Assembly: GCF_013415885.1 (NCBI RefSeq)
Contig: NZ_CP058910.1
Span: forward strand, 4,402,001 to 4,466,000
Source of the DNA: Halosimplex rubrum
Lineage (GTDB): Archaea; Halobacteriota; Halobacteria; Halobacteriales; Haloarculaceae
Direction of reading: 5' to 3'
DNA: 64,000 nucleotides
Below, piece after piece: positions 6,135 to 26,373 of this stretch (its first letter is position 1; each line of letters begins with the position of its first letter). Both the position numbers and the translations under genes were made by a program. Under the pieces are notes generated by a model, which saw only the letters and a list, made by a program, of their open reading frames with translations, had not been told where the DNA came from and made no database searches.

Positions 6135-6605
6135 CTAATCTGAAGAGTACTGCTCCAGTTTTGTCGGAGACGAATTGCCCGGCGATGCCGCTCCAGATCC
6201 GTTCAGAACGTTTAACTCCGAGTCATCATCGAGGTAGTGAAACGAGACTGGTGGAACGAAGTCATCGATTCGTTCTCTTGGATCGATCGCTTCGTCAAGC
6301 TCTAACACTTGATCGATTCCGATGGCGTATCCTTCTTCGGTGTCTTCGAAATACGCCATAAATCGGTCTCTGTCATCCATTCCAGATTGGTGCCCGAACT
6401 GTTCCCAGAGCTGGCGGGGACTACCTTCTGAGACCTCAGCCATCGTGAACGCACCGACAACTCGCTGAACAGGTGACGACGAGTAAAGATAGACTGTCTC
6501 GACTGCTTCAGGATGGCTGAACGTCGTCTTCCTAAACTCGTACTTCTTACTCCCCCGGAGAATCTTCTCTGCGAACTCCGGCTTAATCGAGAGCAAAACG
6601 TTCAT
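6135..6605 (-). CDS. ASCH-domain protein
   Basis: The protein has 156 residues from the ATG at 6605. The N-terminus LLSIKPEFAEKILRGSKK followed by YEFRK is the typical opening of ASCH domains, a PUA-like fold thought to bind RNA or modified nucleotides; YLYSSSPVQRVVGAF fits the next conserved strand block. The start is decided by a strong Shine-Dalgarno (AAGGAGGA) a few bases before it. It begins inside the 3' end of the upstream PIN-GNAT-EVE gene (23-base overlap), so the two are translationally coupled and probably work together. The last 20-30 residues are low-complexity and polar. Confidence 0.8.
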   Translation of the reverse strand: MNVLLSIKPEFAEKILRGSKKYEFRKTTFSHPEAVETVYLYSSSPVQRVVGAFTMAEVSEGSPRQLWEQFGHQSGMDDRDRFMAYFEDTEEGYAIGIDQVLELDEAIDPRERIDDFVPPVSFHYLDDDSELNVLNGSGAASPGNSSPTKLEQYSSD

Positions 6606-8079
6606 TGATTCCTCCTTTCTCCCGAATGTACTTATAGTCTTCATCAGATATCTCCGACATCACTTGAAGCGGCGCCGTCAATATATCAGTATCTTTTAAC
6701 TCTTCAAAGCTAATCGGACTCTCTAAGTCAAAATGCCACCGAAATAGAAGAACAGTGGTTGGTGACTCTGCCATCTCTTGAATATCTGTTCTAGCAAAAA
6801 CTGACCGCTTGCCCACGACTCTCGAGATACTATCGGCGTTAGTCATTCCAAAGTGTACCTCTTCTAGTACGCCCAACGAGGTCACCTCTTTGTTATCATG
6901 TGACCGATAGAAGAGGAGAATGTCACCCGCTTCCAGTTTCTTGTTTTTCGCACCAGTTAGGTAGGCCTTCTTGATAGCGTTACCCTCCGACTGAAACTCT
7001 CCCACGAATTCGTGTAGCGGGATATCTCGACCAGAATACGCCGGAAATAGCTTGTTGTGATATTCCGGACGGACTGGAATCAGATACTTGTTAACTTCCG
7101 GCCCATCGACGAAAGAGGGATAGAATTTTCGGGCCGTTTCCAGTGGCGACGGGTTATCCCCTTGACCGGGAGTCAGTCGCTTCAGAAAAATCGACTCACC
7201 GTCTACCTCTCTCGAGACCTCTTCGAAGCCGTAAGTCTCTAACAGCTCTACGAGAACGTCATTCGATCCTTCCACGTAGTGGGTAAGATACACCTCCTCG
7301 TGTCCACTGTTGACCGCTTCTCGAATAGCGATCGATATCAGTAGTTCTCCAATCTTCGATCCCCACTTTCGCTCAGAAACCTTTAGCGTGGAGATCTTTA
7401 GACGGCGACTCCGCCCAAGTTCCGGTTCTGAACCGATATTCTCGACTTCGTTACTCTTCAGGATCAGTATGGCGCCCAAGGAATCGTCCTGATTGTAGTT
7501 GACCCACGCTGTCCTGTCCGACTTCGAGCGTGCCCACCCCTCGAAGTCGTATTCAGACTTCAGTGAGTCAAATATTGGGTCGCTAAGGTCCAGATCCCCT
7601 ACGGTCGTCTTGCGAATTGCCCTTGGTCCTTGAATCGTAGCCGTTTCTGACTCGAAGAACTCCCGCCCTTCTTCGATCGAGAACACTCTGTCTTCCAGAC
7701 CCAGCTCGAAGCCCTTGCTGTGAATTTCCTTGTCTTCCGTAATCAAAAAGTCCACATCGTCATTATACACGGAGTAGAGGAGCGCGTTATCAACCCGGTC
7801 GTTGCTCTTCGTAGCTAGTGGCACTTTCGATCGGAACTCCGTATCGTCTTCGTTTGGGTATTCAGGAAACTCCAGGACTACGTAGGTATCTATCCGTGAT
7901 TCGTTCTGTTGCCGTCGCTCTGCGTCGTGGTCGTTCCTAATTTCCTTTTCAGATTGAGGATGAATGAGAATCCGGTGTCCCTCTTTCTTGAGAGAGTTTT
8001 CGAGCCGTCCCAGATCTTCCGGGACGATGGGGTCGTTTTCCCGATGGATGAAGATGTTAGTATCGAATAGAATGTCCAT
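6583..8079 (-). CDS. PIN-GNAT-EVE three-domain fusion
   Basis: The protein has 498 residues. Residues 1-150 look like a PIN ribonuclease domain: MDILFDTNIFI (D6), a conserved acidic pair in KSNDRVDNALL and D in FLITEDKEI. Residues about 185-305 look like a GNAT acetyltransferase (RRLKISTLKVSERKWGSKIG then ETYGFEEV), although the acetyl-CoA loop has K where the second glycine is usual. Residues about 325-490 resemble an EVE/PUA-like domain (YLIPVRPEYHNKLFPAY, AGDILLFYRSH). An ASCH gene overlaps its 3' end. A nuclease, an acetyltransferase and two PUA-like readers suggest sensing or acting on modified nucleic acid or charged tRNA; this is inference. Confidence 0.7.
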   Translation of the reverse strand: MDILFDTNIFIHRENDPIVPEDLGRLENSLKKEGHRILIHPQSEKEIRNDHDAERRQQNESRIDTYVVLEFPEYPNEDDTEFRSKVPLATKSNDRVDNALLYSVYNDDVDFLITEDKEIHSKGFELGLEDRVFSIEEGREFFESETATIQGPRAIRKTTVGDLDLSDPIFDSLKSEYDFEGWARSKSDRTAWVNYNQDDSLGAILILKSNEVENIGSEPELGRSRRLKISTLKVSERKWGSKIGELLISIAIREAVNSGHEEVYLTHYVEGSNDVLVELLETYGFEEVSREVDGESIFLKRLTPGQGDNPSPLETARKFYPSFVDGPEVNKYLIPVRPEYHNKLFPAYSGRDIPLHEFVGEFQSEGNAIKKAYLTGAKNKKLEAGDILLFYRSHDNKEVTSLGVLEEVHFGMTNADSISRVVGKRSVFARTDIQEMAESPTTVLLFRWHFDLESPISFEELKDTDILTAPLQVMSEISDEDYKYIREKGGINERFALD

Positions 8080-10823: not shown

Positions 10824-12758
10824 CTAACCGCGCCAATCATAGTGCTTTGAGTACTCGGCTCTCCGTTTCTCAACCATCTGTTGTGCCCAGCTGACTGCGT
10901 CTTCAAGCCGTTCTTGTGGGCGGAGATCGAATTCAAAGGATTTAATATAATTTACATCAACTAGTTCAGCCCCGCCAATCATTTTCGTTGAGCCTCCATC
11001 TTTTGGGGTTAGACGTGCAAGAACGGTTCTTTGTTTCTCAGCAAGTCGATACTCATCGATATGACCAGAAGCTTCTCGATCCACCATAATACAAAATCCT
11101 GCGAGCCGCATTGTTGTTGCGACACTTCCAGAGAGATCCTGTGAGGGGAAATCCGGAAGATCCTTATCAAGGTGCGCATCGTATCCCATCTCTTCTAATT
11201 CCTGCTTAATATCAATTAGTTCCGCTTCTCTTGCCCCAGTGTAGCTCCCGAGAACGTATACCGAGTTCTCACTCACCTCCATGACTTTCCCTAGAATATC
11301 ACTAAATTCGGGTTCTGCAGGGAGATTTACTTTCCCTTCATAACTAGTCGAGTCAACTTTCCGGAGTTCTCGGTTTAATCCTGGGATTGCGGTTGGTTCG
11401 ACTGCGGGGATATATTCAGAAAGATCAAGTGTATGTCCATTCTCTCGGATCTCCTCGATTGAAACTGTTTTTGCAATCTCGCTATCGTCATTCCACTCAT
11501 CTAGTTCATCAATGACTCGTTCGATACCGTCTTCCGACAAATTATTCCTTGATTCGAATTCTGTGTAGAATTCCTCATCCATCGCGTGGACAAAACGAAC
11601 TTCGTTCTGGCGACCGCTTTTTTTATCCTTATTTATGACTAATATCGCGACAGGGAGACTTGTGTTTGCATAAAGGTTTGGAGGAAGACCAATAACCGCT
11701 TCAACGAGATCGTTGTCAACTAAATATTCACGGTAAACGCGGTCAGACTGCCGGTAGAGAACTCCATGTGATATTAATATCACTCCCCTACCGCCCTCTG
11801 TATTCTCAGCGGGATCGCGAAGCTGGTTAAGAGCATGAAAAATAAAAGCATAGTCGCCCTGATCAGCACGGGGTAAAGGAAGCTCAGTTGATTGGCTGAA
11901 TCGATGAAACCGGTCCTGTTCAAATTCCTCTTTTGCCCAACTTGGGGAGACGGGAAAATCTGCGAAGACGCAGTCAAATTGTTGTAATCTCCCATTTTCC
12001 GTAAACTGCGGGTTCCTGAGTGAATCTCCAATGTGAATTTCTCCATTAAGGCCGTGTGCCTCGAGATTCAAGCCAGCTAAAGAAGCCGTTTGAGGGTGAA
12101 TCTCTTGGCCAGTTAACTCTAATCCCTTTCTATTTGTCTGGGTTTCAAAATTCTGGCCAGCTTTCACTAACAATCCCGCGACGCCGACAGTTGGGTCATG
12201 TACCGATTCTCCTTCTACAAAAGGCCCTGCTATCCTCGTACATAACTGTCTCACTCCACGAGGTGTCGAGTTCTGTGATCCCTGCTTTCCCTCAATGCGA
12301 GCTAATTGATCGAGGAGGTACTCAAACGCGGCCCCTAACTCAGCTGGGGCCGCACTATTTGAATCCAATTGACATCTACTAAGGTGATCTGTGAGTTCCT
12401 GAAGAGCCCCGTCGTGACCAAGTTTAGTGTAGTCCGGTTTAAAGGCCGTTGTCGGGGCTAATGGGTCATTCGGAACATTCGAGATCGCCTGATTCAGTCC
12501 TTCATCGAGGTGGCTCGGGATATTGACTGTCCCCTGCCATCTATTTTCTTTTGGAAGATGAGGAAGGCTTCTGAGATCTGGGTGGTTTTCTGTGGCTGTG
12601 GCATCTAATTTATCTCGTAGATTAGACTCATCTGATGCCATTTTGTAGTATAATAGAGGGATGAGGAATTCTCGGTATTCTGTAACGCTGAGGTTGCCAC
12701 GAAGAATTTCGATCGATTCGTAGAAATATTCCTTGAGAACCGATTTAGAATACGGCAT
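10824..12758 (-). CDS. pseudo-HsdM methylase fused to TIR/NDT-like domain
   Basis: The protein has 644 residues. Residues 1-150 match an HsdM N-terminal helical domain and 160-460 an HsdM methyltransferase core: STPRGVRQL (HsdM: YTPREVVRL), DYAFIFHAL, and LVEAVIGLPPNLYANTSLP. The active site is broken. The SAM loop is DPTVGVAGLL (188-197) where HsdM has DPCCGSGGML, and the catalytic N-P-P-F is D267-F-P-V270. Residues 498-610 form an unrelated alpha/beta domain (VYVLGSYTGAREAEL, then SGHIDEYRLAEKQRTVL with E569) resembling TIR or nucleoside-deoxyribosyltransferase folds. No HsdS or HsdR lies beside it, so it appears to be a stand-alone gene. The gene is markedly AT-rich, indicating recent transfer. 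A defence role is inferred. Confidence 0.7.
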   Translation of the reverse strand: MPYSKSVLKEYFYESIEILRGNLSVTEYREFLIPLLYYKMASDESNLRDKLDATATENHPDLRSLPHLPKENRWQGTVNIPSHLDEGLNQAISNVPNDPLAPTTAFKPDYTKLGHDGALQELTDHLSRCQLDSNSAAPAELGAAFEYLLDQLARIEGKQGSQNSTPRGVRQLCTRIAGPFVEGESVHDPTVGVAGLLVKAGQNFETQTNRKGLELTGQEIHPQTASLAGLNLEAHGLNGEIHIGDSLRNPQFTENGRLQQFDCVFADFPVSPSWAKEEFEQDRFHRFSQSTELPLPRADQGDYAFIFHALNQLRDPAENTEGGRGVILISHGVLYRQSDRVYREYLVDNDLVEAVIGLPPNLYANTSLPVAILVINKDKKSGRQNEVRFVHAMDEEFYTEFESRNNLSEDGIERVIDELDEWNDDSEIAKTVSIEEIRENGHTLDLSEYIPAVEPTAIPGLNRELRKVDSTSYEGKVNLPAEPEFSDILGKVMEVSENSVYVLGSYTGAREAELIDIKQELEEMGYDAHLDKDLPDFPSQDLSGSVATTMRLAGFCIMVDREASGHIDEYRLAEKQRTVLARLTPKDGGSTKMIGGAELVDVNYIKSFEFDLRPQERLEDAVSWAQQMVEKRRAEYSKHYDWRG

Positions 12759-18748: not shown

Positions 18749-19672
18749 ATGGACTCGACGACCCAGTCGGTCTCGTTCGATGAGGCCGACACGCGAGACG
18801 CCGAGATGCACAGTGCGATCGACGAGTGGATCGACGATCTGGTCGGGGCGGTCGACGAAGCGCGAGCCAGCGAGGAGTTTCAGGATTGGCTCGACATGCA
18901 ACAGCGCTTCCACGACTACTCGTATCGGAACACGCTGTTGATCAAACGGCAGTGTCCCGAGGCGACGAAGGTTGCGGGATATCGGACGTGGCAGGAGGAG
19001 TTCGACCGGCACGTGAAAGAGGGTGAATCGGCCATCTGGATCTGGGCGCCGATCGTCACGACGCGCTGTCCCGAGTGTGAGAACGCGCCCAGTTACCACG
19101 AGCAGATCGGGTGTGAGTACGACGAGACGCCACCCGAGGAGTGGTCGGAGGGACTGGTCGGGTTCAAGCCCGCATCAGTGTTCGACGTCTCCCAGACCGA
19201 GGGTGAGCCGTTGCCCGAACTGGAAACCGCGGCGACCGGAGAGACTGGCGATTTACTCGGCCGGTTGTTTGACATCGCAGACGCGGTCGGGGTGTCCGTA
19301 CGTGTCGTGCCAGACGAGGTGTGGGGGCACGGGAACGCCGACGGTGTCTGTACGTGGCCAGATGGACAGGACCAGCAGCCGGTCGTCGAGGTACGGGATC
19401 GGCCGGATCGGGCTGCGATCGCTGGGACGCTCGTCCACGAGTACGCCCACGCGTTGTTGCATTCAGGGGAGCTTGACGTGTCCGAACGGGCCAAGCGTGA
19501 GGTCGAAGCGGAGGCCGTCGCGTACATCGTCGGCCGGCACTGTGGGCTGGATATGAGCGGGTCGGCGTTCTACTTAGCGGCGTGGGACTCGGACTCGGCG
19601 GACGCGATCCGGGACCGGTTGAAACGGATCAGTAAAACGGCAATGATGCTCCTTAGGTATCTCGGGGACTAA
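18749..19672 (+). CDS. ArdC-like N-domain with HExxH metalloprotease
   Basis: The protein has 307 residues. Residues about 20-110 resemble the ArdC ssDNA-binding domain (FHDYSYRNTLLIKRQCPEA, KVAGYRTWQEEF, WIWAPIV); ArdC proteins are known anti-restriction factors of conjugative elements. Two CxxC-type cysteines follow (CPECENAP). Residues 160-307 read as an ImmA/IrrE-type zinc metalloprotease, with LVHEYAHALLH (H230, E231, H234) and a later acidic ligand region (EVEAEAVAYIV). It probably protects the element's DNA during transfer or cleaves a regulator. A hairpin leader and a TATA box bracketed by inverted repeats lie upstream. It neighbours a type I restriction operon. Confidence 0.75.
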   Translation: MDSTTQSVSFDEADTRDAEMHSAIDEWIDDLVGAVDEARASEEFQDWLDMQQRFHDYSYRNTLLIKRQCPEATKVAGYRTWQEEFDRHVKEGESAIWIWAPIVTTRCPECENAPSYHEQIGCEYDETPPEEWSEGLVGFKPASVFDVSQTEGEPLPELETAATGETGDLLGRLFDIADAVGVSVRVVPDEVWGHGNADGVCTWPDGQDQQPVVEVRDRPDRAAIAGTLVHEYAHALLHSGELDVSERAKREVEAEAVAYIVGRHCGLDMSGSAFYLAAWDSDSADAIRDRLKRISKTAMMLLRYLGD

Positions 19673-19770: not shown

Positions 19771-20514
19771 TCAGACCGTCAGCGTGTTTCCGTTTAGCCT
19801 GAGCCACTCACGACGATCCTCATAATCCGGGATGAGCGCACCAACTGTATTCCAGAACGAGTCAGAATGCTCCTCGTGTATTGAATGCGCCAGCTCGTGA
19901 ACGATGACGTAGTCCTGGATTCGGACGGGTGCCAGTATCAGTCGCCAATTAAGACGAGCCGTACCGTCGTCGTATTCTCCCCATCGGCCATCGATCTCTC
20001 CAGCTTCAATAGACACTTCGTCGACCCCTAGCCTCGATTCGTACCGAGATGCCCGTTCCGGAAGTTCCGCTTCAGCCTGCTCAATGAACCAGTCGACAAC
20101 TGCCTGGCGCTTTCGGCGAATACTGACCTTGTCACCGTCGGCATCGAACCGGTGGACACGGAGCGTAAACGTCTGCTCATCGAACGACAGCTCGGGTTGG
20201 GACACATCCGCCTCAACGACTTCGAGTGGATACTGCCGCCCCCGGTATTGGAGCTTCTCACCGCTCAAATACTCCTTCGGATACGGCGGCCCCGCTTGCT
20301 CTTTCAGGCCGTACAGTTTCTCCAAGATCCATTCCTGACGGGAGTCGAGTACTGACTCAACGTCGGTCATCGTTGCATCCATCGGGGCCTTCACGGCCAG
20401 CTCCAGAGACTCGTCGATCGAGAGAGTCATCGTCTCCCGGTTTTCGGACCAGTCGATCGTGTACGGAACGACTGTCTGGCCGATGTGGTGGTGGCGTTGG
20501 AGTTGCTCGCTCAT
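19771..20514 (-). CDS. YgjP/SprT-like metallopeptidase of the hsd operon
   Basis: The protein has 247 residues. VIVHELAHSIHEEHSDSFW (H206, E207, H210, and a third histidine H216) is the zinc signature of the YgjP/DUF45 family, related to SprT-type peptidases; the tail DYEDRREWLRLNG also fits. Its ATG overlaps the hsdR stop by 4 bases (ATGA), so it is the last gene of the hsdM-hsdS-hsdR operon and translationally coupled. This peptidase is often found after hsdR in type I restriction loci, where its job is not well defined; control of HsdR level or cleavage of a partner is possible. Confidence 0.8.
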   Translation of the reverse strand: MSEQLQRHHHIGQTVVPYTIDWSENRETMTLSIDESLELAVKAPMDATMTDVESVLDSRQEWILEKLYGLKEQAGPPYPKEYLSGEKLQYRGRQYPLEVVEADVSQPELSFDEQTFTLRVHRFDADGDKVSIRRKRQAVVDWFIEQAEAELPERASRYESRLGVDEVSIEAGEIDGRWGEYDDGTARLNWRLILAPVRIQDYVIVHELAHSIHEEHSDSFWNTVGALIPDYEDRREWLRLNGNTLTV

Positions 20515-23474
20515 TGGTAGTGAGCGCGCGCCAATTCGATGACGCGGCTGGTAAGTTCCCGGCGTTCCTCAGCTGAGAGCTCGATCTCAGACCGGTACAG
20601 TTGGCCAGTCACTTCCTTGCGCATCTTGTTCTGCAGATGCGTTCGTTCCTTCCACTCGACCTTGGTCACGAACTCCTCAACGGTCCCGACCAACTCAGCA
20701 GTGAGTTCGACGAAGTCCGCTTCTTCGATATCGTGTTCGCCCAACACGTCCTCGACCGCGTGGTAGAACGATAGGTCGGTTTCGTCACGGAGACCCTTGT
20801 TGCGGGCTCTCTTGTCGCGCGACCGGATCTCGTCCATCAGCGTCCGCAGCTCCTCGATGGTTTTCTGTTCGCTAAGTCGCCCTTCACGGTACTTCTCAAT
20901 GAGCTCCTCCAGCCGTTCTTTGAGAGACCCGTATTGGACCGGGTCCTCGTCCAACCGGACGTTGATCTCGTGCTCGATCGCATTCTGCATCTCACTCGCA
21001 CGGGCTTCGTCGCTCTCTAAGTCTTCAAGTTTCGCACCAAATTCGACCTCGTCCATGATCGAGACCGGCTCGTCGTTCAGGATCTCGATGCCCTGTGAGG
21101 TGATGTGGTCTTGGATGAGCTTTCGCACCTTCGCCCCTGCTCCTTCGAGGTTCATCGTCTCGTCGCGGTAGCGTTCCTTCGCCTTTCCGTAGATGGTGCT
21201 GAGCTGGTCCAAATCGTCGCGGTACGGGTTCGCCATCGGGTCCGGGAGGACAATGTCCATCAACTGCGAAAAGCGCTTGAACGCGTTCTTGAACTCGATG
21301 CGTCGGTCCTCGGGTTCGAGCGACTGAACACACGCTTCGACATCGTCGAGATCCTCGAAGAACGAGACCGCCTTGTTGTGGGCTGCCTCAAGATCTCCCT
21401 GTTTGTCTTTAACCGGCACCATCGCCCGCTCGACGTCCTTCGAGCTGAACATCGCCAGCGCCTCCTTCAGTTCGTCCGAGACGCCGTAGTAGTCGATGAC
21501 GAGCCCATGGGTCTTGTCCTCGAACGGACGATTCACGCGAGCGATCGCCTGTAACAGGCCATGTTCACGCAGCGGTTTATCGAGGTACATCACCTGGGCC
21601 ACCGGTGCGTCGAACCCCGTCAGGAGCATATCGCAGACGATGAGCAACTCGACCTCGCCATTGGGATCGACGAACGACTCCTTGTACTGGCTCTTCTCGG
21701 CGTCGCTTGGCGTCCATTGCTTGATGTGCTCCTCGTCGTTGTGCCCCTCAGAGACGATCACTCGCGACTCCGGCCCGTTCAGGCTGTCGAGGGTTTCCTT
21801 GTATCGGATCGCCGCCTCCTTGCTGGTGGTGACGACCATGCCCTTGAACGGGGCCGGAACGTCGTTTTCGAAGTGCTCGACAATATCCAGCGCGACCCGG
21901 TCGATGCGCGGCTGTGCCTCCGCGAGATCCTGCGTACGGGCGTAGCGCTTCTGAATCTCTGCTTTTTCTTCCTCGGTCTTCTCCGAGAAGATACGATCGA
22001 ACAGTCGGTCCAGCGTTTCGCCTTCGAGGTGGATGTCGGCGAGACGGCCCTGGTATAGAATTTCCACCGTCGCGCCGTCTTCCAGCGACTGGTCAATGGT
22101 GTACGTGTCGATATAGTTTCCGAACGTCCTGCGAGTGTTGACTTCGTCTTTCTCGATCGGCGTACCAGTGAACCCGACGTAGAAGGCGTTCGGGAGCGCA
22201 GTCCGCATATTATTCCCGAGATCCTTGTCCTGGGTCCGATGGGCCTCGTCAGCCATGACGTAGATGTTCTCGTTCCGGGAGAGCACGGGGAACTCATCTT
22301 CTTCGTCGTCGGTGGTCTGGAACTTGTGGATGAGCGTGGTGATCGTCTCGCCGGCGTCGTAGCTAAGCCGATCACGGAGGTCCTCGATGCTATCGGCCTT
22401 CTTCGGGTTCGGGAAGCCACAGCGTTCGAAGGTCGCGTGAATCTGGTCGTTCAGCGCCCGCCGGTCGGTGACAAGCACGAGCGTCGGATCGTCCTTGAGT
22501 CGGCGGAGCTTCAGCGCGAGGAACAGCATCGTGAGCGATTTCCCCGAGCCCTGGGTGTGCCAGACGACGCCGCCGTTGGCTTCGCGCTGGCCACGCTTGT
22601 CGATCCGCTCGAGGGCCTTCCGGACCGCTCGATACTGCTGGTAGCGAGCGACCATCTTGATCGCCCCGCTCTGGCGGTTCTCGAACACCGTGTAGTGGCG
22701 CAGTTGGTCGAGCAGGCGTTCGGGCTCGAACAGCGCGTAGAGCATCCGGTACTGGTCGGGGAGATAGCCGTCGAGATCGAACAGGCCGATGAGTTCGTCG
22801 TCTTCCAGCGGGTAGGCGTCCCGCCAGGGCTTGTACTGGTCTTTCGGTGTCCCGTATGTCCCCATCACCGCACCCTCCATCCAGACGGCGACTGAGAATT
22901 GATTATACCGGAAGAGTTCCTCAGCGCCTTCCGACTCACCCTCCCGTTCGTTCTGGTACCGGGTGAGCTGATCGAGCGCCTCTGAGCGTGGTTCTTTGAT
23001 CTGGGGGCTCTTGCACTCGACAACCCCGAGTGGGATGCCGTTGACGAACAGCACGATGTCGGGCTTGACGACATCGACTGGTCCCGCGACCCGGAACTGA
23101 TTGAGCGCGAAGAAGTCGTTGTTCTCGGGGTTCTCGTAGTCGATGTACTGGACCGTCTGATGTTGCTTCCCGTGGCCGCGGTCCTGCTCGACGGCGATGT
23201 GACGGACGAGTTTCTCGTGGATCTGCTCGTTCTCGTCCATCGTACTCGTCCCGGCGACCTGCTGGATCTCCCGAACGGCCTTGTTCAGATTGTTCTCGTT
23301 GAGCCAGGGGTTCAGGCGCTCGACGGCGTTACGCAGTCGGGATTCGAGTACGGCCGAGGATTCCGTCTCGCGGGGGTCGGCCCAGGTGGTCTGTTGCTGG
23401 TCTAAGACCACCCAGCCGAGTTTCTGGAGAGTTTCGAGGGCGGGTCGTTCGGACTCGGCGTACTCGTCAGGCAT
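20511..23474 (-). CDS. hsdR: type I restriction enzyme R subunit (HsdR)
   Basis: The protein has 987 residues, normal for HsdR. The N-terminal nuclease domain shows D139 in VVKPDIVLF and E153-C-K155 in GVVECKSPQ (PD-(D/E)XK). The helicase motor follows: HTQGSGKSLT (Walker A, residues 306-315), DEAHRT (409-414) and later motor motifs (MLLTGFDAP, ARVNRPFEDK). The C-terminal 300 residues are helical, for assembly with HsdM and HsdS. The enzyme translocates and cuts DNA that lacks the cognate methylation. It starts 2 bases after the hsdS stop and overlaps the next gene by 4 bases, so the operon is tightly coupled. Confidence 0.95.
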   Translation of the reverse strand: MPDEYAESERPALETLQKLGWVVLDQQQTTWADPRETESSAVLESRLRNAVERLNPWLNENNLNKAVREIQQVAGTSTMDENEQIHEKLVRHIAVEQDRGHGKQHQTVQYIDYENPENNDFFALNQFRVAGPVDVVKPDIVLFVNGIPLGVVECKSPQIKEPRSEALDQLTRYQNEREGESEGAEELFRYNQFSVAVWMEGAVMGTYGTPKDQYKPWRDAYPLEDDELIGLFDLDGYLPDQYRMLYALFEPERLLDQLRHYTVFENRQSGAIKMVARYQQYRAVRKALERIDKRGQREANGGVVWHTQGSGKSLTMLFLALKLRRLKDDPTLVLVTDRRALNDQIHATFERCGFPNPKKADSIEDLRDRLSYDAGETITTLIHKFQTTDDEEDEFPVLSRNENIYVMADEAHRTQDKDLGNNMRTALPNAFYVGFTGTPIEKDEVNTRRTFGNYIDTYTIDQSLEDGATVEILYQGRLADIHLEGETLDRLFDRIFSEKTEEEKAEIQKRYARTQDLAEAQPRIDRVALDIVEHFENDVPAPFKGMVVTTSKEAAIRYKETLDSLNGPESRVIVSEGHNDEEHIKQWTPSDAEKSQYKESFVDPNGEVELLIVCDMLLTGFDAPVAQVMYLDKPLREHGLLQAIARVNRPFEDKTHGLVIDYYGVSDELKEALAMFSSKDVERAMVPVKDKQGDLEAAHNKAVSFFEDLDDVEACVQSLEPEDRRIEFKNAFKRFSQLMDIVLPDPMANPYRDDLDQLSTIYGKAKERYRDETMNLEGAGAKVRKLIQDHITSQGIEILNDEPVSIMDEVEFGAKLEDLESDEARASEMQNAIEHEINVRLDEDPVQYGSLKERLEELIEKYREGRLSEQKTIEELRTLMDEIRSRDKRARNKGLRDETDLSFYHAVEDVLGEHDIEEADFVELTAELVGTVEEFVTKVEWKERTHLQNKMRKEVTGQLYRSEIELSAEERRELTSRVIELARAHYQ

Positions 23475-23476
23475 AG

Positions 23477-24814
23477 TTAGTCGGTGTCAACGCGAACTTT
23501 GCCAGTGAGGAGATCCTGCATGAGGCCGCGTTTTAGTTGTTTTAGCTCGATCTTCCGTTCCTTCTCTATTGATACTCTCTGGTCAATAGTAGATAAGATG
23601 TCGACGATTTCTCGCTGTTCTTCGGTAGATGGAACCGGAATGCGAAGTTCATTAATCAATCCAGTATTCAACCCGTCCATTATCGCTCCGTGGCTGAATG
23701 ACTCGATTTGGTGCTTGACAATACGTGAACTTCGCAGAACTCCACTCAGATACTCCGGAAGACAGAATGAAGGATCAATACGAATCCTGAACAAATGATA
23801 GTCCATTATTCCTTTTCTTGCATCATCAGGAAGTACAGCAGCATCTCCTATCGTTCCCATCCGTGTTAAGAGGACATCGTCAGGCACAACCTGATATTTT
23901 TCTAAATCATGGTATTTCTCTTCCGTCACATACTGGCCTCCTTTCTCGAAATCTCCAGAATTGATGTTCGCTTGTCGATATATTTTGTAGCCCGAGTCGG
24001 TGAACTCTTCCTTTTGGAGTTTACTTCCGTATGGTCCGGTTTGAACCACACTGGACGCTGGAGTGGGAAAGTTTTCGAGCCGTCTCAATTCCCATGACTC
24101 AGGTAGGGGTATTGAGAGTGGCCCGACCACTACATCACTTTTAGATTCGCTTCGAGCCCCATTATCAAGGAGCCGGTGGGCGATTCCCTTTTTCAGTTCC
24201 TCGAACTTCTCGATAATCTCGTCTGTCTGTTGAATCTGCTCGTCGACCGTCGAGAGGATGTCGACGACTCGGCGCTGTTCGGGGAGCGGGGGGAGCGGGA
24301 TAGTTAGATTCCCTTTGAATACGTCACTCGGAACCCGTTGGCGTCCAGTCGAACCTTCCATCAAGGAAATAGTGACCGACCGAAATTCGGGGAGATTGGA
24401 GAGGTAGTAGACAAATCGCTCCTCAATCACGCCCTCGCAAGGGTGGAAAACGAGGAACTCTGTAGAGCCAGAACCGACCTCGGTACTCATTCCGTCGATG
24501 AATGTGATCTTCCCGTTTTCAGTACATGGCGTGATTTTAGCGTAGACGGTATCTCCGTTCTTGAACCACGTCGTCGTACAATCGTCTTTCTCCCGCTGAG
24601 TCCAGTATTCGATGGTCTGCTTTTCTTCATCAACAGCGTCCATCGGGAGGTAATCGAACGGGCCGTTGTCGGGCTTATCGTATTTCGGGTTAAGCTCTAT
24701 GGCCTCGTCGAAAGGAACGATATCCCACTCATCCGGTATCGGAATCTCACGAGGTCCGAGTTGGACGGTTTTGTAGCCTTCTTGCTGATCGGACTGTTCC
24801 AAGGCTTCACTCAT
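23477..24814 (-). CDS. hsdS: type I restriction enzyme S subunit (HsdS)
   Basis: The protein has 445 residues with two target-recognition domains, each followed by the conserved spacer helix: PLPPLPEQRRVVDILSTVDE after the first and VPSTEEQREIVDILSTIDQ after the second. TRD1 begins GPREIPIPDEWDIVPF and TRD2 begins GPLSIPLPESWELRRLENF. It sets the DNA sequence recognised by the HsdM and HsdR subunits. The ATG overlaps the hsdM stop by 4 bases. The gene is visibly AT-richer than hsdM and hsdR, most strongly in the TRD2 half (about 23480-24170), which fits exchange of recognition domains. Confidence 0.93.
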   Translation of the reverse strand: MSEALEQSDQQEGYKTVQLGPREIPIPDEWDIVPFDEAIELNPKYDKPDNGPFDYLPMDAVDEEKQTIEYWTQREKDDCTTTWFKNGDTVYAKITPCTENGKITFIDGMSTEVGSGSTEFLVFHPCEGVIEERFVYYLSNLPEFRSVTISLMEGSTGRQRVPSDVFKGNLTIPLPPLPEQRRVVDILSTVDEQIQQTDEIIEKFEELKKGIAHRLLDNGARSESKSDVVVGPLSIPLPESWELRRLENFPTPASSVVQTGPYGSKLQKEEFTDSGYKIYRQANINSGDFEKGGQYVTEEKYHDLEKYQVVPDDVLLTRMGTIGDAAVLPDDARKGIMDYHLFRIRIDPSFCLPEYLSGVLRSSRIVKHQIESFSHGAIMDGLNTGLINELRIPVPSTEEQREIVDILSTIDQRVSIEKERKIELKQLKRGLMQDLLTGKVRVDTD

Positions 24815-26373
24815 CGATATTCTAACTCCTCCATGTACTCCTGCAGTTCCTCGTCGCTCTCCTGACGCTCCTCAGCAAGCCGATCCAACTCCCGTAGCTT
24901 CTCGCTCACGTCGATGGGTTCCTCTGGCTCGGTCGTATCGACGTAACGCGGCACATTCAGGTTCCAGTCGTTCTCCTCGATTTCCTCTAGGTCGACGAGC
25001 CGACTATGATGGTCCTCTTCGCGCCCCGTCTGGAACGTCTCAGCGAGGTACTCAACACCCTCATTAGTTAGTTGATTCTGATTCGAGAGCTCTTCGAACA
25101 CCTGTACGTCCGACTCTCGAAGCGTCTGATCCTCGGCGTAAATGAAGTGGACCTTCTCAGCTCGCTCCGCGGGCTTGTCCTTGTTCAAAATAAGGATACA
25201 GCCCGGCGAGGAGGTGTTGTAGAACAGGTTCTCCGGTAGCGCGATCACAGCCTCGACGAGGTCGTTCTCCAGAATCGGCTTGCGGATCTTCTTTTCCGAA
25301 CGCGAGCGGAATAGCACCCCGTTGTCCATCACGACACCCGCCTTTCCAGTCTCGTTGAGCGAAGCGATCATGAGCTGAATCCAAGCCCAGTCGCCGCGGT
25401 TCGACGGCGGGAGCCCGTACGGGAAGCGGTTGTACGGTTCGTTCTCTTCGACCCACTCCTTGCTCCACTCTTTCTGGTTCCACATCGGGTTCGCGATGAC
25501 CCTGTCGAACACCTCCAGCTCGTCATGCTTATTGACGCGCTTCGGTTCGGTGATAGTGTCGCCCTTCTCGATCTTGGCGTCGTAGAGTTCATGCAGCAGG
25601 ACGTTCATTTGGCCGATGGCCCACGTGTTCAGGTTTTTCTCCTGACCGTACAGCGAGATGTCCTCCATATCGCCGCCCGACTCACGGATGTGCTCGGCGG
25701 AGTAGATGAGCATTCCACCGGAGCCACAGCAGGGGTCGTAGACGCGATGCCCGGGCTCGGGATTGACGCATTTGACGATGAGGCGGACGACTTCCCGTGG
25801 CGTGTAGAACTCACCGCCTTTCTTGCCTGCGTCGTCGGCAAATTCGCGGATGAGGTACTCGTAGGCCCGCCCGAAGATGTCGGGGTCTTCGAGGTCGACG
25901 TTCCGGTACCGGTGCTTCGAGAAGTGCGAGACGAGATCCGAGAGGAGTGAGTCGGGCAGCCGTTCCTTGTCGTTGAAGTCGACCGTCGTGAGCACACGAT
26001 CTTCGATGGGGTCGTTTTCGTCTTCGATCGCCGCGAGCGCCTTGTTCAGCGCAGCCCCCACGTCGGTTTCCTGAGCTTTGATGTGATCCCAGCGAGCGCG
26101 CTCGGGAATCCAGAACTCCTCGTGGATGTCTCGATCCTCCCGGGCAGTTGCTTCGTCGATCCCATATTCTTCGGCGACCTCCTCCGTCTCCTCGTCGAAG
26201 CGGTCGTTCGCCCGCTTGAGAAACAATAGACCGAAGATGTAGTTCTTGTAGTCCGCGGAGTCGATGCTCCCGCGCAGCTTGTCGGCAGCCGCCCATAGGT
26301 GGTCTTCGAGCGTTTCGAGAGTGAGTATATCGGGTTCCGTTCCAGGCAGCGTCGCCTGGTCGCCGTCAGACAT
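24811..26373 (-). CDS. hsdM: type I restriction enzyme M subunit (HsdM)
   Basis: The protein has 520 residues. An N-terminal helical domain (LEDHLWAAADKLRGSID, YIFGLLFLKRANDRF) is followed by the methyltransferase core: GGEFYTPREVVRL (187-199), the SAM loop YDPCCGSGGML (212-222) and the catalytic ANPMW (294-298), a normal variant of the N-P-P-F motif. It methylates adenine in the target set by HsdS and is required for restriction. It is the first gene of the four-gene operon; an inverted repeat overlapping a TATA-like element lies just upstream. It also serves as the in-window reference that exposes the broken motifs of the protein at 10824-12758. Confidence 0.95.
   Translation of the reverse strand: MSDGDQATLPGTEPDILTLETLEDHLWAAADKLRGSIDSADYKNYIFGLLFLKRANDRFDEETEEVAEEYGIDEATAREDRDIHEEFWIPERARWDHIKAQETDVGAALNKALAAIEDENDPIEDRVLTTVDFNDKERLPDSLLSDLVSHFSKHRYRNVDLEDPDIFGRAYEYLIREFADDAGKKGGEFYTPREVVRLIVKCVNPEPGHRVYDPCCGSGGMLIYSAEHIRESGGDMEDISLYGQEKNLNTWAIGQMNVLLHELYDAKIEKGDTITEPKRVNKHDELEVFDRVIANPMWNQKEWSKEWVEENEPYNRFPYGLPPSNRGDWAWIQLMIASLNETGKAGVVMDNGVLFRSRSEKKIRKPILENDLVEAVIALPENLFYNTSSPGCILILNKDKPAERAEKVHFIYAEDQTLRESDVQVFEELSNQNQLTNEGVEYLAETFQTGREEDHHSRLVDLEEIEENDWNLNVPRYVDTTEPEEPIDVSEKLRELDRLAEERQESDEELQEYMEELEYR

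Follow-up and report, generated by a model that had tools for sequence, protein, structure and literature searches.

An overlapping PIN-GNAT-EVE and ASCH gene pair of Halosimplex rubrum is a candidate toxin-antitoxin-like defence unit of the PDC-M11/GevTA kind

The window, i.e., the whole stretch of 64,000 nucleotides of Halosimplex rubrum DNA that was analysed, carries two overlapping genes on its minus strand. The first (6583..8079) encodes P0001, a PIN-GNAT-EVE protein of 498 aa that belongs to PDC-M11A and is the presumed toxin (open reading frame, PADLOC model PDLC04422, AlphaFold2 model). The second (6135..6605) encodes P0002, an ASCH protein of 156 aa that belongs to PDC-M11B and is the presumed antitoxin (PADLOC model PDLC04424, AlphaFold2 model, fold match to ZmASCH). 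As originally predicted, both the fusion gene and the ASCH ORF are present at these positions, which is confirmed by the ORF list and the sequence. The end of the toxin gene and the start of the ASCH gene share 23 nt (6583..6605, minus strand), and a Shine-Dalgarno site AAGGAGG (6611..6617, minus strand) is found 5 nt ahead of the ASCH ATG, such that both the strong Shine-Dalgarno site and the gene overlap of the original prediction are upheld. The site is located inside the toxin gene, where it codes for the GG of the GGINERF tail. The respective ASCH start is at 6605 and not at the ORF's first ATG (6644).

The pair is part of a stretch of lower GC content (mostly 43-61% across about 1-26 kb, with one 1-kb step at 68%), which is bordered by sequence of 62-75% GC. 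Relatives of the pair are found in prophages and plasmids. Both observations are in accordance with the proposed placement in a mobile element, which is nevertheless only partly borne out, i.e., no integrase of clear identity is among the window proteins scanned. On the same strand, 2.7 kb from the pair, follows a lone HsdM-like N6 DNA methylase (10824..12758; Pfam N6_Mtase E 4e-62). A complete type I restriction-modification operon (hsdM, hsdS, hsdR) together with a YgjP-like gene (19771..26373, minus strand; Pfam, PADLOC) lies 11.7 kb away. About 190 C-terminal residues of the lone methylase extend past its N6_Mtase match and look Rossmann/TIR-like by eye. A weak similarity to the N-terminal domain of the anti-restriction factor ArdC is found on the plus strand beside the type I operon (18749-19672).

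P0001 matches the PADLOC PDC-M11A model with E 1.8e-160 over residues 1-496 of 498. Its single-sequence Pfam matches are weak (GNAT 3e-4, which is over the cut-off; PIN_3 0.011; EVE 0.023), and so is the single-sequence ASCH match of P0002 (E 8e-4). Among 57 aligned family members, E<=0.01 is reached by PIN_3 in 22, by EVE in 18 and by Acetyltransf_1 in 13 cases. Given the PADLOC and family-member matches, the weak Pfam matches of both proteins are not due to chance. The PIN domain covers aa 1-145 (7645..8079, minus strand; Pfam PIN_3, acid conservation) with the acids D6, E46, D97 and D116 (also D94), the GNAT domain about aa 150-305 (7165..7632, minus strand; Pfam Acetyltransf_1, VIA, conservation) with the acetyl-CoA loop G240-S-K-I-G244-E, and the EVE/PUA-like domain about aa 325-498 (6586..7107, minus strand; Pfam EVE in family members, VIA, N367).

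The AlphaFold2 model of P0001 (pLDDT 89.7, pTM 0.86) was compared with solved structures. Here, the middle domain superposes on the GNAT structure 1wwz (VIA Z 15.3, rmsd 2.4 over 142), while the C-terminal domain shows a PUA-like fold with ZmASCH as its best solved match (VIA Z 14.5). PIN-family matches were found for P0001 as well; that PIN structures are absent among its best 50 structure matches is no evidence against the PIN fold. Taken over Pfam and PADLOC, and for the GNAT, EVE and ASCH parts also over the AlphaFold2 fold comparison, the original domain calls stand, with the PIN fold as a prediction from sequence.

To describe residue conservation, we used 45 non-redundant PIN-GNAT-EVE and 40 non-redundant GNAT-EVE proteins; the family comparison as a whole comprises 181 assembled loci, among which the window's own locus is counted twice. 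Within the PIN-bearing members, D6 is invariant (45/45), and E46 (D or E), D97 and D116 are kept in 44/45 each. P0001 has all four acidic active-site residues of a PIN ribonuclease. Five residues, i.e., Y177, W182, K228, G244 and, in the EVE domain, N367, are invariant in all 85/85 proteins, while G240 is found in 45/45 PIN-bearing members and in 31/40 GNAT-EVE proteins. With the fold and the acetyl-CoA loop G240-x-K-x-G244, P0001 has the features of a GNAT acetyltransferase. This conservation of the PIN acids as well as of the GNAT loop shows that both enzyme halves are under selection, and neither looks dead. The original expectation that these residues would decide which half is active is not supported as an either/or, i.e., the sequence gives no choice. 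In the compared proteins, the constant core is GNAT-EVE, while the PIN domain is an optional part that archaeal forms and some of the bacterial ones have in addition. These features fit a nucleic-acid-directed toxin-like unit, and a sensor-effector acting on charged tRNA is a reasonable reading of them. Because the GNAT structure matches rank N-terminal protein acetylases above the tRNA-acetylating TacT, a tRNA target in particular is weakly supported; it would follow from the analogy with GNAT toxins and from one locus with tRNA genes. That is, in the Lactobacillus prophage Lj965 (L015:3319-3894), a single case, the genes of four tRNAs (Ser, Glu, Tyr, Phe) directly precede the GNAT-EVE gene.

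The second protein, P0002, matches the PDC-M11B model with E 1.3e-46, and its gene adjoins gene A. Its AlphaFold2 model (pLDDT 90.2, pTM 0.81) superposes on ZmASCH with VIA Z 19.4 (rmsd 1.7 over 132 residues). ZmASCH of Zymomonas mobilis (crystal structures 5GUQ/5GUS) itself matches PDC-M11B (E 6e-29), and its Tyr47 and Ser128 correspond by alignment to Y41 and S121 of the family, which are invariant (55/55). The position of its Lys53 varies in the family and is Q47 in P0002. By sequence match, fold match and the retained equivalents of Tyr47 and Ser128, P0002 is of the ZmASCH kind. Within plasmid records, a ZmASCH-like gene is found in 35, of which 27 are also among the 33 with a GNAT-EVE match. 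Since ZmASCH, a member of the family, has been reported to cut ssRNA and to bind nucleic acids (Kim et al. 2017, PMC5615036), the ASCH protein may be more than an inhibitor.

We also compared the profile of the ASCH family with the EVE domain of the toxin. The relationship between the two extends over 131 columns (probability 89%, E 2e-6), while the GNAT and PIN controls yield 0.7% and 0.5%, respectively. Given this relatedness between the toxin's reader domain and the antitoxin, the ASCH protein may silence the toxin by replacing that domain or its RNA ligand. Taken together with ZmASCH being the best solved match of the EVE domain, silencing via a shared ligand or via mimicry is possible.

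P0002 also superposes on the ac4C-bound structure of E. coli YqfB (Z 9.2, rmsd 2.2 over 95 residues). A GNAT writer and an ASCH amidohydrolase of the YqfB kind that undoes its acetylation would be a pair of opposite activities. The catalytic residues of YqfB are Lys21, Thr24 and Arg26 (PMC6972931). At the same spacing, the ASCH family has K20, E23 and R25, such that the nucleophile Thr24 is replaced by E23 in 55/55 members, and the Lys-Thr-Glu triad is not found. We thus set aside the assignment as a YqfB-kind ac4C amidohydrolase and regard the writer-eraser explanation as very unlikely.

Next, we studied the junction of the two genes. Clustering at 80% ASCH identity resulted in 108 clusters, 88 of which have a toxin directly upstream. 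The overlap is exactly 23 nt in 79/88 of these, a share that is biased upward because the ASCH-anchored scan patterns contain LLSIKP, which also sets the overlap; among the loci fetched via toxin similarity, 11/19 show the 23-nt overlap outright. It recurs from haloarchaea to coliphages. Over 105 distinct junctions, ASCH always begins with ATG (105/105) and the toxin stop is TAA (99) or TAG (6), i.e., the stop is an out-of-frame reading of the conserved I-K (or I-R, V-K) codons at the ASCH start. A Shine-Dalgarno string of at least 5 nt is present at 29% of the 105 junctions vs. 1.6% of random windows from the same genes. From these data, the conserved toxin tail GGI(D/N)ERF partly doubles as the ASCH gene's ribosome-binding site and start. 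In alphaproteobacterial loci, the ASCH gene is located upstream and the toxin has no GGI(D/N)ERF tail.

Two further arrangements were observed at this junction. In 16/80 viral loci (L024, L026, L039, L041-L044, L048, L053, L054, L056, L073, L077, L078, L080, L081), the toxin consists of two ORFs split at the GNAT-EVE linker, and the EVE ORF keeps the 23-nt overlap with ASCH. In another locus (L137:6526-7023), an overlap of likewise 23 nt is found between a nucleotidyltransferase gene and a solo ASCH gene, and the former closes with a toxin-like tail (LDERFTVS).

We surveyed 392 genomes of the phylum for the co-occurrence of both genes and obtained 32 full-length open toxins and 54 ASCH places. 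An adjacent ASCH gene accompanies 30/32 full-length toxins, i.e., almost always, as the original prediction had expected. The two exceptions are a full-length toxin at a contig end without an adjacent ASCH gene (G471) and a full-length toxin whose adjacent ASCH is reduced to its C-terminal half, with an intact ASCH gene 2.2 kb further on (G322). The 54 ASCH places, in turn, are found beside a full-length toxin (30), beside a partial or broken one (9), or beside none reaching the threshold (15), where the last number is an upper bound of true solo ASCH genes, since at least two of the respective loci (G290, G380) adjoin a diverged GNAT protein below the threshold (GNAT-DUF365 in G290). Three partial-toxin cases (G430, G320, G255) are at or near contig ends, and one genome (G384) holds a PIN-only remnant that has lost D116. 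The PIN-only remnant at L258:2152-2962 (D116 lost) overlaps an intact ASCH gene by 23 nt after an internal GNAT-EVE deletion. The single-protein scan of genome contigs with P0001 gave no matches since its patterns are too specific; the ASCH-anchored scans succeeded.

In complete E. coli genomes, the toxin is found in 274/5426 and ASCH likewise in 274/5426, where both were counted separately such that the sets may differ. In strain MSI001, insertion of an IS5-family element disrupts the toxin and leaves ASCH intact; in SCU-485, both genes as well as neighbouring genes are damaged. According to the psiM100 record, the larger part of the toxin gene belongs to an inserted fragment, and ORF5 is similar to ORF5 of psiM2; by homology, psiM100 ORF5 is an ASCH protein. 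On a Halalkaliarchaeum plasmid (L007:8001-9502, near type I-B cas genes), the toxin is frameshifted and ASCH is intact.

Overall, the toxin is rarely without its partner (ASCH adjacent in 30/32), while 24/54 ASCH places are without a full-length toxin next to them, as is characteristic of toxin-antitoxin pairs. That is, the loss is one-sided, which is the pattern expected of an antitoxin. Antitoxin-only loci could also represent independent functions, e.g., restriction accessories. We inspected the genes upstream of the 21 ASCH loci without an adjacent toxin match (20 'solo', 1 'other'). Among the 10 proteins scanned, HsdM, stand-alone PIN, nucleotidyltransferase, AbiEii-like, DUF1828 and Bro-N proteins are found, and no single replacement toxin emerges.

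In six of these surroundings (L134, L144, L147, L170, L154, L114), the gene ahead of a solo ASCH gene encodes a stand-alone PIN (as in L144), a DUF1828, an AbiEii-like or a Bro-N protein. In a second type of pair (L267, L270), ASCH adjoins a GNAT protein that also has a PUA-like part, which is DUF365 in L267, while one single protein (L151:2348-4045) combines ASCH with a GNAT that has an EVE-like part. Two proteins of about 710 aa (L186:1849-3990, L190:450-2579) each adjoin a ZmASCH-like gene; the former consists of GNAT followed by PIN and a C-terminal part without Pfam match, and the latter has a GNAT domain.

The loss pattern also bears on an explanation without any antitoxin. Here, EVE and ASCH would recognise base modifications of foreign nucleic acid, on which GNAT and PIN would act, with ASCH as co-sensor or regulator. 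This is close to the views of Bell et al. (2020) and Iyer et al. (2013). It draws on EVE and ASCH folds binding modified bases in other proteins, as described in passages of Bell et al. (PMC7641849), on alphaproteobacterial HTH-ASCH annotations, and on the binding of nucleic acids by ZmASCH (PMC5615036). We consider it doubtful, since one-sided loss suits an inhibitor better than an obligate co-sensor.

Relatives in phages provide further evidence on the roles of both genes. Escherichia phage PhiR47_2 (PV340567.1) annotates its homologues as 'GevT toxin' and 'GevA antitoxin', and both match PDC-M11A/B. Here, gevT-gevA directly follow cI in the same direction and precede kil and gam, i.e., they are at the position behind cI where lambda carries rexA-rexB. 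SopEPhi, which is P2-like, carries between its A-like and Q-like genes two unknown genes that overlap by 23 nt, and the first of them matches P0001. The respective P2 interval is, as we assume, a defence hotspot.

PIN-less GNAT-EVE proteins are typical of phage contigs, while PIN forms are typical of cellular genomes with restriction genes. This division would be expected if PIN forms destroyed RNA that had been marked by viral GNAT-EVE proteins, an interplay of writers and breakers (Bell et al. 2020). Yet PIN forms keep the full GNAT loop (K228 and G244 in 45/45), which would be superfluous for a pure destroyer, and we thus judge the interplay unlikely.

The link to restriction genes was quantified for the surveyed genomes. 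HsdS or an HsdM-like N6-methylase is found within 10 kb of 16/32 full-length toxins vs. 0.8 expected by a simple Poisson estimate, where only N6_Mtase matches with E<=2.2e-38 (65) and mostly one match per HsdS gene were counted and lower ones dropped. In six relatives (G271, G479, G385, G412, G465, G459), the ASCH frame continues into HsdS. These fusions are located directly behind the toxin; 5/6 are followed by hsdM further on in the same direction, while the sixth is at a contig end. A Methanohalophilus locus (L148) likewise shows an ASCH-HsdS fusion by Pfam (Methylase_S 1.7e-29) and is probably the same locus as G465. In one further genome (G477), a PIN part is joined to a weak HsdS match. 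With regard to ASCH-anchored genome loci, Hsd genes are found for 10/41 PIN pairs, 8/19 solo ASCH genes and 0/4 GNAT-EVE pairs; in viral contigs, for 1/67 GNAT-EVE pairs (1/71 for genome and viral loci together). These relatives suggest, by their gene arrangement, that the pair is tied in some microbes to a DNA-cutting defence enzyme.

If ASCH is the antitoxin, its fusion to HsdS hands the restraint of the toxin over to the restriction complex. ASCH might thus tie a latent toxin to the type I complex, such that a virus disabling or dismantling the complex would free the toxin and translation would stop. There is precedent in EcoprrI, for which the respective passages in the literature describe PrrC as a latent tRNA nuclease in a type IC operon that is freed by T4 Stp (PMC3874165, PMC3014915). 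The six in-frame fusions behind the toxin, the excess of restriction neighbours within 10 kb and the distribution of Hsd genes among PIN pairs, solo ASCH genes and PIN-less pairs argue for such a PrrC-like guard. On the other hand, the window's own ASCH is free-standing with the complete type I operon at some distance, half of the sampled toxins have no restriction neighbour, and prophage forms have almost none. Furthermore, Bell et al. take the HsdS fusion, in the passage concerned, as conferring modification specificity. We therefore regard the PrrC-like guard as possible, if on the improbable side. Rather tentatively, we put forward that it would be a guard module made from unrelated parts, in which the ASCH antitoxin, covalently joined to HsdS in some archaea, links a translation toxin of the PIN-GNAT-EVE form to the type I restriction complex.

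Our preferred reading, to which we assign a probability of roughly 0.7, is that the two genes belong to the PDC-M11/GevTA kind of toxin-antitoxin-like defence pairs, in which ASCH restrains a two-domain RNA- or tRNA-directed toxin. The PADLOC models, the toxin and antitoxin names in PhiR47_2, the conserved residues and the coupling count for it, and so do the loss pattern, the prophage slot at the rexAB position and the proximity to restriction genes. The G322 and SCU-485 loci, the reported ssRNA cleavage by ZmASCH, the possibly independent functions of antitoxin-only loci and the ranking of the GNAT structure matches count against it. Domains, conserved catalytic residues, coupling, one-sided loss and the association with restriction genes are read from sequence; what we infer is the identity of the toxic gene, tRNA as its target, the event that sets the toxin free and protection against viruses. 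In detail, the first gene would yield a harmful protein, whose EVE domain would hold an RNA ligand, most likely tRNA. The GNAT domain would acetylate this ligand, most likely at the amino group of aminoacyl-tRNA, and the PIN domain would cut RNA. The ASCH protein, produced from the overlapping gene with its own ribosome-binding site, would keep the toxin silent, and infection or loss of the element would remove the ASCH protein and thereby free the toxin.

The family spans haloarchaea to lambda-like coliphages, the coliphage form being the one counted above in E. coli. The analysis turns a listed candidate into concrete questions, i.e., which of the genes is toxic and whether PIN, GNAT or both act. 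Further questions are whether ASCH-HsdS fusions are guarded tripwires and which role the reported ssRNase ZmASCH plays as a PDC-M11B member. If the guard model is true, type I restriction would have a further guard in addition to, and independent of, PrrC, which would be of wide interest.

Finally, we compared the pair with known systems. It is an ordinary member of a catalogued family, and its domain combination is not new (PADLOC, Bell et al. 2020). The original prediction is right as to its anatomy and in part as to its function. For PDC-M11, a candidate phage defence system in PADLOC, both genes match at full length or nearly so and are adjacent; we found no difference, and the window pair is a haloarchaeal member. 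Bell, Wolf and Koonin (2020, PMC7641849), who credit Iyer et al. (2013), predict in the passages on these operons that (PIN)-GNAT-EVE fusions form toxin-antitoxin systems together with a second gene, which encodes a PUA-like ASCH protein. They find PIN forms close to type I restriction and GNAT-EVE forms in prophages, and report that ASCH is fused to HsdS in Methanohalophilus; as of these passages, none of the modules had been characterised in such systems. Their operons share architecture, ASCH partner, restriction and prophage neighbourhoods and the HsdS fusion with the family studied here. The 23-nt overlap, the loss pattern, the assignment of ZmASCH to the family and the guard model go beyond the respective passages. 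Our literature search found no paper on the GevT/GevA names or containing 'PDC-M11', and no toxicity, neutralisation, acetylation or phage tests of the whole unit in searchable papers. GevT/GevA of PhiR47_2 share the M11A/M11B families, the gene order and the 23-nt overlap with the window pair, but are without PIN domain and set in a lambda-like immunity region. PrrC resembles relatives of the window pair in being a toxin-like RNA effector within type I restriction operons; it differs in being an unrelated NTPase-nuclease, as given in passages of PMC3014915, that is kept latent through the Hsd complex itself.
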